Shown one piece after another: positions 16,300 through 55,662 of a stretch of 55,662 bases of DNA (position 1 is the stretch's first letter; every line of letters begins with the position of its first letter). Origin of the DNA: a virus; IMG/VR virus record IMGVR_UViG_3300024261_000038, positions 1-55,662 of that record. One strand, given 5' to 3'. Position numbers and translations under genes: made by a program. The notes below the pieces were generated by a model, which worked only from the letters and a program-made list of their open reading frames with translations, had not been told where the DNA came from and did not search any database.

Positions 16300-17193
16300 A
16301 TGGCTACATCAATTTGGGGCGGAGATGATCCCTCAGTAGCATGGAATGAAAATTCATGGCAATCTAATCTTGCAACAGTTATATTAACAGGAGTTTCAAC
16401 AACAACATCAGTCGGATCTATAGATGCTTTTAATACAGCAGGATGGGGATCGGATGCTTGGGGTGAAGATGGTTGGGATGGAACTTTTACAGTAGTTTTA
16501 ACAAGTGCAGGTGTTGCAACAACAGCTGTTGGTTCTGTAGAAGTAGATGCAGAAATAGGTTCTGGTTGGGGCCGAGGTGAATGGAACAACAACGAAGGTT
16601 GGGGTATTCAAGGAACTGTAATACTTGAAAGTTTATCTGCAACTGTATCTTTAGGTTCTGTAACAACTGCTGATGTAATGGGACTAACAGGAGTTTCTGC
16701 AACAGCTAGTATTGGATCAGTTACAATGATCGGTAACGTAGTTGTGACTCCAACAGGAATTTCTGCAACAACAAATTTAGGATCAGTTACTGTTGCTGAT
16801 GTAATGGGACTAACAGGAGTTTCTGCAACAGTAAGTGTAGGATCTATTTCTCCTGCAGATGTTATGGGAGTATCTACAGCAGGAGTTGGAACAACAGCTA
16901 TTGGAGATGTTGGTGTTACTTCAAACCCTACTATTTTACCAACAGGAGTTTCTGCAACAGTAAGTGTAGGATCTATTTCTCCTGCAGATGTTATGGGATT
17001 AACAGGAGTTTCTGCAACAGCTTCAGTAGGAAGTTTAAGTCCTCCTGTTGTAATGGGGTTAACAGGAATTTCTGCAACAATAAGTGTCGGAGACTTATTT
17101 ATTCAGGCATATCAAGATGTTGACACAGGTTCAAATACATCGTATACAAGTGTTGCAACAGGATCAAATACAAGTTATAGTGACGTTGCATAA
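16300..17193 (+). CDS. Repeat-containing fibre-type protein
   Basis: 297 aa. The N-terminal part is rich in Trp-Gly-Asp (GWGSDAWGEDGWDG). From about residue 105 on it is built of about 20-aa repeats with the form TGVSATVSVGSISPADVMG, in which hydrophobic residues alternate as in a beta-solenoid or fibrous stalk. Two copies are identical at DNA level over 58 bp, evidence of recent duplication. It precedes other tail-fibre-type genes, so a tail-spike or fibre shaft is likely. AAGGAGGAAG gives a strong ribosome-binding site. Confidence 0.65.
   Translation: MATSIWGGDDPSVAWNENSWQSNLATVILTGVSTTTSVGSIDAFNTAGWGSDAWGEDGWDGTFTVVLTSAGVATTAVGSVEVDAEIGSGWGRGEWNNNEGWGIQGTVILESLSATVSLGSVTTADVMGLTGVSATASIGSVTMIGNVVVTPTGISATTNLGSVTVADVMGLTGVSATVSVGSISPADVMGVSTAGVGTTAIGDVGVTSNPTILPTGVSATVSVGSISPADVMGLTGVSATASVGSLSPPVVMGLTGISATISVGDLFIQAYQDVDTGSNTSYTSVATGSNTSYSDVA
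16812..16998 (+). repeat. 58-bp exact direct repeat within the fibre-type gene
   Basis: Bases 16812-16869 and 16941-16998 are identical over 58 bp and are offset by 129 bp (43 codons), which preserves the frame. Weaker copies of the same unit lie at about 16680-16740 and 16998-17095. Confidence 0.9.
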
Positions 17194-48401: not shown

Positions 48402-48575
48402 ATGACAGACATGACTAAGTACAAAAACGTTTCTTTAAGTAAAGAAACATACGCTACTTTAGATAAGTTATCAAAGATAATATTGCCCGATGCAAAATTA
48501 TCAGTAGCAAAAACAATAGAAGCAATAGCAAACGAGAAAGCGAAGAAATTAAATGGCAAATTCAAAAAAAGTTAA
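48402..48575 (+). CDS. Ribbon-helix-helix-like DNA-binding protein, 57 aa
   Basis: MTDMTKYKNVSLSKETYATL... A short strand (KNVSLSKE) followed by two helices is the usual Arc/MetJ layout. Preceded by AAGGAAG and by an inverted repeat overlapping its own promoter. The likely function is repression of early promoters, perhaps including its own. The stop region overlaps the next gene by 23 nt. Confidence 0.65.
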   Translation: MTDMTKYKNVSLSKETYATLDKLSKIILPDAKLSVAKTIEAIANEKAKKLNGKFKKS

Positions 48576-52812: not shown

Positions 52813-53100
52813 ATGCCTAAGAAAAGAAGAAAAGCTATCAACACTGAAACAACTCCGGATATACCTTTTCAGAAGGTTAGAGTGGAGTGGGTCGACTGCG
52901 TAAGTGACTCTGCCTGGGCTAGTGAAAAAGAGTTTGATAAAATGAAATTAGCATTCCCAGTTAATGAAGGCTGGTTATATTCTAAAGATAAAAATTCAAT
53001 TAAATTATTTGCGTCTTACGATAAAGATGAAGATGGTATTACTTTTGGGGATCGGACAATGATTCCTCGTCAATGGGTAAAGAAGATTCAGAAGCTGTAG
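52813..53100 (+). CDS. Conserved small protein, 95 aa
   Basis: WVDCVSDSAWASEKEFDKMK and NEGWLYSKDKNSIKLFASYD, then FGDRTMIPRQWVK, make a compact beta-rich protein that I recall from related phages. Its last 62 nt overlap the - strand terminase gene in antisense, and both reading frames look genuine. Function unknown. Confidence 0.68.
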   Translation: MPKKRRKAINTETTPDIPFQKVRVEWVDCVSDSAWASEKEFDKMKLAFPVNEGWLYSKDKNSIKLFASYDKDEDGITFGDRTMIPRQWVKKIQKL

Positions 53101-53560
53101 ATGGAGTCACATTTATTAATTGCCCGTAGTCGTCTATTATCTGTTTCATTTTTGCTTCTAGCTCTTGTTCTGATAGGTCCTCTAGTTTTCCTGTTTTTAT
53201 TATCTTTCTATCTATGTATAGTCCTGCTGCTTTTCCTCTGTTTGCTTCCGCATTCACTGCTGAAGAGAATGATCCTTTTTTTAAAGCGGCCTCTCTCAGT
53301 CTAGCAAGCTCTGCTATGTGTCCTTCATAAGACACTTCATGTTTTCTAATTCTTTCTTCTCTCAACTGTCCTAAATATTTTACAACTAGTGGAGATAACT
53401 TTGGATTGTTTAATTCTGATCCTTCTTGTCTTGCACGTTTAGGACTATACCCAGCAGCGATAGCCGCTTCTGTTTGTGTCATTGGTCCATCTGGTCCACC
53501 GAATACTAAAAATTCAGCAAAGCGTTGTTGCATTTCAGTTAATCTTTTTGGTACGCCCAT
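53039..53560 (-). CDS. terS: Terminase small subunit
   Basis: 173 aa. The N-terminal helix-turn-helix (TQTEAAIAAGYSPKRARQEGSEL, about residues 28-50) and following helices fit the Terminase_2 family, which recognises the packaging site and recruits the large subunit. The gene is alone on the - strand between + genes. The large subunit is not in the window, so packaging genes are split or beyond the edge. Confidence 0.85.
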   Translation of the reverse strand: MGVPKRLTEMQQRFAEFLVFGGPDGPMTQTEAAIAAGYSPKRARQEGSELNNPKLSPLVVKYLGQLREERIRKHEVSYEGHIAELARLREAALKKGSFSSAVNAEANRGKAAGLYIDRKIIKTGKLEDLSEQELEAKMKQIIDDYGQLINVTPSTASESSLPIDEESLSDPQK

Positions 53561-53928: not shown

Positions 53929-54164
53929 GAGTACAAGACCTTCAGTTGTTTCTCGGTAACTTTACAAAAGGATCTGACGCAGTAAAAAATGCTGTCATCT
54001 TCGTAGAGATACAAGGAAATTTACATGAGATTAGACGAATGGAAGTACATGAAAATGCTATTCCAATTATCGGTCAACCAGGCCACAGTACACATAGGTT
54101 AGTTATGAAAACCCATAAACCTTCTAAGCTTATCTTGCCAGATAAACTTCAGAAGGACTATTAA
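53925..54164 (+). CDS. Small conserved early protein, 79 aa
   Basis: MRVQDLQLFLGNFTKGSDAV... with AVIFVEIQGNLHEIRRMEV and GHSTHRLVMKTHKPSKL, beta-rich. Starts by ATGA overlap. No known domain; probably co-expressed with the nuclease that follows. Confidence 0.62.
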   Translation: MRVQDLQLFLGNFTKGSDAVKNAVIFVEIQGNLHEIRRMEVHENAIPIIGQPGHSTHRLVMKTHKPSKLILPDKLQKDY

Positions 54165-54192
54165 TGAATGACAGTGTTACTTTAAAAAAGGT

Positions 54193-54561
54193 ATGGGACC
54201 AGAGCGTAAATTATATCAAAAAGTTAAGAATAATTTTAAAGATTTTTCGCTTATTAGACTTGAAAATAATAGCTTACTTGGTACTCCCGATCTATTGGTG
54301 TATAATAATTCTGGCCACTTTTTCACTATCGAGTTGAAAGTCACGAAGGGTAACAAACTTAAGTTTTCACCACACCAAATTAGCTTTCATGTGAGGCATC
54401 CACACAATACATTTATCATAGCAGAGGCCCTTGGTCCAGGTACCGTGAAACTTTTCCGTGGTTCACGAATCATGGAGCTTGACGCTTGCGGGTTTAAGCT
54501 TGACGCTTGCTGCTTGGGGCTTGACGCTTGTCGCTTGATGCTTCAGGAGCTTGGGGCTTGA
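54193..54561 (+). CDS. VRR-NUC-type nuclease with heptad-repeat-encoded tail
   Basis: 122 aa. LLGTPDLLV (Asp 33), TIELKVTKG (Glu 47, Lys 49) and the Gln of SPHQISF (62) reproduce the PD-(D/E)XK VRR-NUC arrangement, as in phage Holliday-junction-type nucleases. The core ends at about residue 95. The rest (ELDACGFKLDACCLGLDACR...) is encoded by the GCTTGNN heptad array and is probably not part of the ancestral fold. Converges on, and overlaps, a - strand gene. Confidence 0.78.
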   Translation: MGPERKLYQKVKNNFKDFSLIRLENNSLLGTPDLLVYNNSGHFFTIELKVTKGNKLKFSPHQISFHVRHPHNTFIIAEALGPGTVKLFRGSRIMELDACGFKLDACCLGLDACRLMLQELGA

Positions 54562-54583
54562 CGCTTGAGGCTTGAAGCTTGTG
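54464..54583. repeat. Heptanucleotide array, GCTTGNN, with CAYGGAN at its left edge
   Basis: From 54477 the DNA reads in 7-mers: GCTTGAC, GCTTGCG, GGTTTAA, GCTTGAC, GCTTGCT, GCTTGGG, GCTTGAC, GCTTGTC, GCTTGAT, GCTTCAG, then after a 2-nt shift GCTTGGG, GCTTGAC, GCTTGAG, GCTTGAA, GCTTGTG. CACGAAT-CATGGAG lies immediately to the left. The first five bases are conserved and the last two vary freely. Confidence 0.92.
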
Positions 54584-54700
54584 GCCCGGACCAGGTGAAC
54601 GCCTTCCAGCCTCCGTCGAGTCTCCTCGGCTAATTACCTGATCCGATTTATTACGCTTGCGTAATTCTTTATAATATTTTGGGTGTTTAAATTCGTGCAT
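54494..54700 (-). CDS. Small protein with repeat-encoded tail, 68 aa
   Basis: MHEFKHPKYYKELRKRNKSD... is basic and folded-looking, while the last 25 residues (LQASSVKPQAPEASSDKRQA...) come from the heptad array. Its ATG overlaps the stop of the Gp88-like gene (TAATG). It overlaps the VRR-NUC gene in antisense by 68 nt. Confidence 0.55.
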   Translation of the reverse strand: MHEFKHPKYYKELRKRNKSDQVISRGDSTEAGRRSPGPGHKLQASSVKPQAPEASSDKRQAPSSKRQA

Positions 54701-55299
54701 TAATGTTTACCATATATCACAGCTGGAATAGTTTTGTCCCAACATTTTCTACAATCCATGCATTTTCCTTTTTGGTCCGGAGCTGGACATGTACGTGATT
54801 CTTTAGTCGTGACACCTGACTCATGACTCCAGGCGCTGGAGCTTGGACCGTTGATCTTAGATCTTGATAATCTTATAACAAGATTTGCCGGAACCTCTTC
54901 AGGAGCTGGCAGGAATTGCCGCTCTTGCGTCGGCAGCCAGTGATTTGTATCGGGTGTAAGTTTACACACCTCCAAAATATTGGCCATATGTTCTTTTGAT
55001 TGTACGTCTCCGGCATCATGCCATCTAAACCATTTTAAATTTTTAATTCTTGCAGCCATCGCTTCAACCCATAATGGGTTTTTAATTGCATCCAGGCGTC
55101 TGTACTGGGCCGCTTTGATTGCTGGGTACCGTGTATAATTTCCTTTTTTAGCATAACAGAAAAAGCATGGCGTGCCTGGAACCTTCGAGAGCTTCCAGCC
55201 GGTCTTACACTCCCACGCCGGGAGGCTATAAGATAGTCCCGGCATTTTGGACGTTTTCGTAAATGAGTCTGTAATTTTTAAAGCTTCTTTTATTAACAT
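54700..55299 (-). CDS. Gp88-like protein
   Basis: 199 aa. MPGLSYSLPAWECKTG (Cys 31), CFFCYAKKGNY (Cys 45, 48), RWHDAGDVQS (about 93-101) and the C-terminal CPAPDQKGKCMDCRKCWD (Cys 171, 180, 183, 186) match the phage gene-product-88 family. Two Cys clusters suggest Zn or Fe-S binding. The biochemical function of the family is unknown to me. GC-richer and with different codon use from the core genome. It overlaps both neighbours. Confidence 0.78.
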   Translation of the reverse strand: MLIKEALKITDSFTKTSKMPGLSYSLPAWECKTGWKLSKVPGTPCFFCYAKKGNYTRYPAIKAAQYRRLDAIKNPLWVEAMAARIKNLKWFRWHDAGDVQSKEHMANILEVCKLTPDTNHWLPTQERQFLPAPEEVPANLVIRLSRSKINGPSSSAWSHESGVTTKESRTCPAPDQKGKCMDCRKCWDKTIPAVIYGKH

Positions 55300-55493
55300 A
55301 ATTTATTTCTTTCTAAATCCTTTATAGTCCCTGATTCATGATCTGTCAAGCTTGAAGCTTGGCGCTTGGCGCTTGTTGCTTGCGGCTTGAGGCTTTTGAA
55401 AAACTTCTCGCAGCTGGCAAGATAAGCAGCCGGGAGCTGTGAGTGCTCCCGGATAAAATAATGTGTTAAGTCGTTGTGTTTAATTCTTTTCAT
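55293..55493 (-). CDS. Small protein carrying a heptad-encoded segment, 66 aa
   Basis: MKRIKHNDLTHYFIREHSQL... The stretch LKPQATSAKRQASS is encoded by the second GCTTGNN array. Its stop overlaps the Gp88-like start and its start overlaps the upstream stop, so it belongs to the same coupled - strand operon. Function unknown. Confidence 0.55.
   Translation of the reverse strand: MKRIKHNDLTHYFIREHSQLPAAYLASCEKFFKSLKPQATSAKRQASSLTDHESGTIKDLERNKLC
55350..55398. repeat. Second GCTTGNN heptad array
   Basis: Seven consecutive 7-mers: GCTTGAA, GCTTGGC, GCTTGGC, GCTTGTT, GCTTGCG, GCTTGAG, GCTTTTG. Same unit and orientation as the array at 54477, about 870 bp away. Confidence 0.9.
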
Positions 55494-55662
55494 GATTGCC
55501 AGTAATCTCCACCAGCCGCGCTGTTCAGGCAGGTTAAGTACTCAGACTCTGACAGTCCCATCTCGCTGGTCAGGAAGCTGTGCTTATCTCCTTGGAGCCC
55601 GAACTTTGGGTCCTTCAGGTACTGGACCGCCTTATCCAGGATCACGTGGCGCTCGCTGCCAC
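55490..55662 (-). CDS. Partial protein at the right window edge
   Basis: Open on the - strand from the edge to TGA at 55492-55490: 56 residues visible, ending SEYLTCLNSAAGGDYWQS. GC-rich codons (CTG, AAG, GAC) unlike the core genes. ATGA overlap with the next gene. The N-terminus is missing; no family recognised. Confidence 0.6.
   Translation of the reverse strand, partial: GSERHVILDKAVQYLKDPKFGLQGDKHSFLTSEMGLSESEYLTCLNSAAGGDYWQS

Follow-up and report, generated by a model that had tools for sequence, protein, structure and literature searches.

Arrays of CAAGC heptads abut predicted promoters in the GP88-terS gene island of HTVC027P-type pelagiphages and are candidate operators

The right end of a pelagiphage contig carries two arrays of a short word repeated every 7 bp, which raises the question of what function holds the word in place. 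Pelagiphages infect SAR11, the commonest bacteria of the ocean. The window (the whole stretch of DNA that was analysed, a virus contig of 55,662 bp) is, by its protein matches, an HTVC023P/HTVC027P-type pelagiphage; HTVC023P-type pelagiphages are widespread (PMC9599517). The portal and GP88 proteins of the window have their best matches in Pelagibacter phage HTVC027P and phage 023Pt_psg01, HTVC023P gives the next-best match of the portal, and many further genes are common to the window and these three phages. Array A1 (54477-54581) contains 13 exact copies of GCTTG on the plus strand, or about 15 heptad units if the degenerate GGTTT (54491) and GCTTC (54540) are counted, with one phase slip of 2 bp between 54540 and 54549. 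Array A2 (55350-55395, exact units 55350-55389) contains six exact copies and a degenerate GCTTT, about seven units, and starts 873 bp from the start of A1 on the same strand. The 15 and 7 units, shared orientation and spacing of about 870 bp that were given in the first-pass annotation are therefore real; that annotation mentioned neither the promoter abutting each upstream array nor a third array outside the window. A pattern of three heptads in a row, allowing up to two mismatches, was matched 18 times, always within A1 or A2, against 0.03 expected from shuffles, and a heptad scan of all 55,662 bp found no further such array. The window also holds about seven repeats of roughly 60 bp (16652-17091) within an ORF (16300-17193) of the structural-gene region.

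Most of the genome reads rightward, and the right end of the window forms a leftward island (GP88, small ORFs and terS) with a higher G+C content (0.42 at 54001-55000 versus 0.34 for the whole window). On the minus strand, in which the island is written, the repeat unit reads CAAGCNN. The arrays flank the GP88 gene (54700-55299, minus strand; 199 aa, PF17338, E 2.7e-31), a homologue of HTVC027P gp33, and lie within the island between terS and terL. Complete relatives have this island between replication-side genes and terL. A1 is located behind GP88, where it overlaps the ends of two convergent reading frames: a small ORF on the minus strand (54494-54700; homologue of HTVC027P gp32) that overlaps the GP88 stop codon and runs through A1, and a nuclease-like gene on the plus strand (54193-54561) with resolvase/endonuclease PHROG matches, whose product is judged here to be VRR-NUC-like. 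The next island gene is the terminase small subunit gene terS (53039-53560, minus strand). A2 is located just upstream of the GP88 promoter and forms the tail of another small minus-strand ORF (55293-55493) with relatives in many loci. The contig stops short of the terL region (55474-55662 being its end), and a third array, A3, with its promoter lies just beyond, as seen in near-identical contigs (-479 to -454 from the GP88 start in L134 and L135). The early genes of HTVC027P are all reported as of unknown function (PMC12753301).

The arrays are not peculiar to this contig. At least 120 viral stretches with four exact units were found in a scan for CAAGCNN, and among the matches listed 118 of 120 carry some marker gene of the phage family, three of these (L037, L044 and L118) having a terL match only; L037 and L101, which are high in G+C, are probably unrelated. 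A second set of loci, fetched through GP88 and thus without choosing for repeats, has the same layout; in the combined set GP88 identity falls as low as about 45%. Relative to the start codon of GP88, A2 usually lies at -96 to -50, A3 300-600 bp upstream of GP88 and A1 about 100-250 bp behind it. In all, arrays recur at the same places in more than 100 contigs and in the cultured phage HTVC027P, where one chance-like cluster of three pentamers is all that occurs outside the island arrays. HTVC023P has no arrays. Unit counts are equal in near-identical contigs, and in A1 of one relative (L136) two heptads are cleanly missing compared with the window. Because an isolate genome and many independent contigs carry the arrays, they are not an artefact of assembly. 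No earlier description of the element was found in the literature that was searched, and no such DNA repeat appears in those parts of the HTVC023P-type genome and HTVC027P transcriptome literature that were searched.

The upstream arrays are coupled to promoters. A predicted sigma70-type promoter of GP88 (55321-55349, minus strand) has TTGACA at 55344-55349 and, 17 bp on, TATAAA at 55321-55326, which ends 21 bp before the start codon. The TTG of this -35 box together with the last A2 unit forms an inverted half-site, GCTTG. Across loci, TTGACA starts between -2 and +14 bp from the array end in 89 of 134 A2 and 57 of 73 A3 arrays; it is found at the end of 3 of 203 A1 arrays and at 1% of random positions. 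The best -10 element after an array-end TTGACA is mostly 17 bp on. When loci are aligned on TTGACA alone, with no choosing for repeats, 7-bp periodic information extends back to about -42. Array and TTGACA follow each other at zero spacing, as CAAGCTTGACA, in 97 of 143 cases, and where the array is spaced from the promoter GC precedes TTGACA in 25 of 46 (7% elsewhere), so that the inverted GCTTG covers the -35 box there too. The other sigma70-like promoters of the window and of HTVC027P have no arrays. In HTVC027P, gp33 (GP88) and gp34 sit downstream of A2 and A3, and by RNA-seq they form their own expression cluster, high at 6-9 h (PMC12753301).

These observations suggest that the arrays act in cis as operators for a phage DNA-binding protein, probably of the ribbon-helix-helix (RHH) type, that binds them cooperatively and controls the GP88-terS unit; the probability of this reading in full is put at about 0.5. 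That the arrays are protein-bound regulatory elements of some kind is the most likely explanation, and the sequence evidence for operators is good. Each CAAGC would serve as a half-site for dimers of a small protein encoded by the phage, the dimers lining up next to one another at a constant pitch (7 bp in the clade of the window, 8 bp in a sister clade). A2 and A3 reach the -35 box of promoters that would drive the leftward island (small gene, then GP88 and on towards terS). Since the last, inverted half-site lies over the -35 box, an array filled with protein would close the promoter or determine when it is active. A1, where the genes converge, may be an auxiliary site, acting as a roadblock between converging transcripts, as a loop partner of A2 or as a sink for the protein. 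Counted against the operator reading are that A1 abuts no promoter, that one MAD-class phage subtype has hardly any array and that the RHH assignment depends on weak profile matches and a moderate model. If the reading is right, a control element and a candidate regulator can be named, together with a testable rule, namely that the protein sets the pitch.

The pitch itself varies between clades. In relatives of 023Pt_psg01 the same pentamer (CAAGC/CGAGC) occurs at the same places in steps of 8 bp or 4 bp, and in one of the pitch-8 loci (L531) the array likewise abuts TTGACA. Spacer length is thus a clade character, 2 nt in the clade of the window and 3 nt in the sister clade, and a word that is kept while its spacing changes is what would be expected if protein-protein packing sets the pitch. 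A bolder proposal, which is regarded as doubtful, is that these abundant marine phages use a DNA-binding filament system whose protein dictates the step, 7 or 8 bp, at which a single pentamer is read. Related phages would then differ in the spacing of their operator and keep its word, and one array would be at once an operator or boundary element and coding on both strands. Blocks of GGGTGGGCCC lie next to the arrays on either side of GP88 in the pitch-8 clade (L129, L415, L417, L429 and others). GP88 was rejected as the pitch-setting factor, since GP88 types mix with pitches 7 and 8.

The likeliest binder would be an RHH-like protein of 57-60 aa encoded some 4-8 kb away, although its identification as the binder is tentative, a little short of an even chance. 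The window encodes one such protein of 57 aa (48402-48575, plus strand), a homologue of HTVC027P gp21; the two proteins, 57-59 aa long, look like RHH proteins. The protein model of the gp21 type, of moderate quality (pLDDT 69), has an extended stretch followed by two helices, three family members give RHH_1 matches (best 6.6e-4), and RHH proteins are among the weak matches of a structural search. In the structure search against the PDB the candidate has no match below E 0.001, and sequence searches against Pfam, PHROG and the PDB supported the RHH assignment weakly or not at all. Arrays are present in 67 of 68 loci with both the RHH gene and GP88, and a tblastn search of the array-free HTVC023P with gp21 gave no match. 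A further point against is that the RHH gene's own promoter lacks CAAGC, which leaves no autoregulation through that site. Pitch follows the class of the RHH protein: proteins starting MTD occur with pitch 7 in all 72 clear calls and proteins starting MAD with pitch 8 in 23 of 25, for classes that were drawn after seeing the data and loci that are related. Pitch was unclear in 14 MAD-class loci, one MTD-class locus (L171) and one unclassed locus, which are outside these counts. Exceptions to the rule are L085, with a MAD-class RHH protein at pitch 7, and L568. Hardly any CAAGC array is seen in contigs that have a further RHH subtype (MADPNKFKSVSVPIDTY..; L538, L541, L542, L544, L550, L553, L576 and L580), in which the element may have been lost or changed.

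The rival binder is TerS. In this explanation the arrays are the packaging initiation site or part of it, with the HTH-domain ring of TerS, encoded next door, wrapping the roughly 100-bp A1 and perhaps repressing its own transcription unit through A2 and A3. Packaging sites usually lie near terS, and here terS is in the island and the repeats are beside it; in SPP1 the pac site contains direct repeats and extends over the terS promoters (PMC4737164). As a predictor of pitch, TerS type is about as good as RHH class, with pitch 8 in 18 of 18 loci with psg-type or intermediate TerS and pitch 7 in 74 of 77 clear calls for A-type TerS, and as both track pitch about equally in these data the two are inseparable as its correlate. 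L453 and L531 have similar TerS proteins, different RHH subtypes and the same pitch of 8; however, L085 has a TerS like that of L531 and yet has pitch 7. Also against packaging are the coupling of A2 and A3 to promoters, the half-site overlying the -35 box and the finding that the SF6 TerS domain lacks specificity for the pac repeats (PMC4737164). As in SPP1/SF6 pac, direct repeats and promoters are found next to the gene of the small terminase subunit, but the pelagiphage arrays are built of numerous short units with strict spacing and number up to three over more than 1 kb. TerS stays in play because of the terS neighbourhood and the SPP1 precedent, but packaging is considered an unlikely explanation; if it were correct, the packaging start of this phage group would have been located.

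The RHH protein is favoured over TerS because of the promoter coupling and the precedent of Omega. Omega/ParB, an RHH protein of plasmid pSM19035, acts at a heptad operator and centromere with the unit WATCACW; it binds contiguous 7-bp units at promoters and needs four contiguous units (PMC9499535). The phage arrays resemble its sites in having contiguous, non-palindromic 7-bp units, with five well fixed and two freer bases, at promoters; a candidate RHH-like protein that co-occurs with the arrays is at hand in the phage. Omega sites have 7-10 units that overlap promoters, and six units are typical of A2. In contrast to Omega sites, the phage units nearly all point the same way, the half-site over the -35 box being the exception, and the sister clade has a pitch of 8. 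Because their core is CAAGC and not WATCACW, the arrays are not assigned to the Omega system; by analogy, they may work like Omega heptad operators in design. Tandem hepta- and octanucleotide elements of Geobacter metallireducens also have 7- or 8-bp units and are proposed regulator sites, but they are dispersed over the chromosome and have other cores and mostly about four units (PMC2700814).

Transcribed runs of CAAGCNN could alternatively act as RNA, by binding a protein or by functioning in termination or processing at gene 3' ends. The single orientation of the arrays relative to the island genes and their position at gene 3' ends agree with this, but A2 and A3 stop at a promoter rather than a terminator and the inverted GCTTG at the -35 box fits DNA binding, which makes an RNA-level element rather improbable. 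A known Rfam element was rejected, as a search of the arrays gave no match up to E 0.5.

The arrays also encode protein. CAAGCNN contains no stop codon in any sense frame, and any ORF that enters an array runs through it. The tails on both strands to which the first-pass annotation drew attention are present, as KLDACCLGLDACR in the nuclease-like ORF and as SSVKPQAPEASSDKRQA in the small ORF overlapping the GP88 stop, an ORF with the tail KLQASSVKPQAPEASSDKRQA; the tail made by A2 is KPQATSAKRQASS. Several unrelated small ORFs upstream of GP88 share the same array-made tail, and the A1-made tail of the nuclease-like protein is conserved (ELVACGLKLEACCLGLEACRLxLESLGA), with its free positions following amino-acid preferences. 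The arrays might therefore exist because the repetitive tails that they encode are useful (ACxLxLE for the nuclease-like protein, QAxSxK for the small ORFs), but the core is held at synonymous positions, in both coding phases and on both strands. Lysines in A2 tails use AAG in 143 of 144 cases, versus 182 of 422 in the rest of the same ORFs, and leucines in nuclease tails use CTT or TTG in 635 of 678, versus 639 of 1190 in the rest, a contrast that is somewhat inflated because the tails were located by the repeat itself. A2 moreover runs on to the promoter, and the nuclease tails of period-8 relatives differ in sequence. A purely coding origin was rejected on the synonymous codon positions, and a protein-level purpose is very improbable. 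The element is real, conserved and constrained at the DNA level, its core is a DNA-level signal, and the free bases absorb protein-level constraint where the array is coding. If the operator reading holds, the odd repetitive protein tails that gene finders produce in such contigs are explained.

Neighbouring units differ more than chance predicts. The two free bases of neighbouring units are identical in 2.2% of 801 pairs in A1 (7.8% expected) and in 6.7% of 359 pairs in A2 (8.9% expected). Coding accounts for part of this pattern: units three apart, which corresponds to one cycle of the reading frame, agree more often, and free bases inside the nuclease-like gene follow codon phase. With expectation computed per codon phase, 2 of 412 neighbours agree inside that gene against 17.0 expected; outside it 14 of 349 agree against about 30. 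Because the loci are related, these agreements are not independent events. The simplest reading is selection or purging against perfect tandem copies. The first-pass annotation was thus right about a fixed signal and about the absence of simple slippage, whereas the random spacer it suggested does not hold, as the spacer follows codon phase inside the nuclease-like gene, avoids its neighbour and has a set length. Homogeneous (CAAGCNN)n microsatellites occur in bacterial genomes (L213-L330, many of them Pseudomonas and Halomonas, across phyla) and served as the slippage control; they share pentamer and period with the phage arrays, but their units are near-identical within an array (neighbouring spacers agree in 92% among the matches listed with five exact units), while those of the phages are heterogeneous and tied to one gene context. 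A neutral or selfish microsatellite made by replication slippage is thus extremely improbable for the phages, where neighbours agree in 2-7% of pairs and array position is fixed over strongly diverged genomes, even though unit loss does happen, as in L136.

Other short sequences accompany the arrays. A palindrome, TTAGAATNATTCTAA, was matched 74 times, with up to two mismatches, in the islands of 55 loci, in many cases close to A2 or A3 (for example at -230, -90 and -525 from the GP88 start in L121, L049 and L136, respectively), and is possibly the site of another regulator. Directly 5' of A1 (about 54582-54593 on the plus strand of the window) the minus strand reads CCTGGTCCGGGCC. The motif CCTGGTC[AC]GGGCC is found at 46 places, all inside the 500 bp behind GP88, and a complement-like sequence of it sits in the spacer of the A2 promoter in a few loci.
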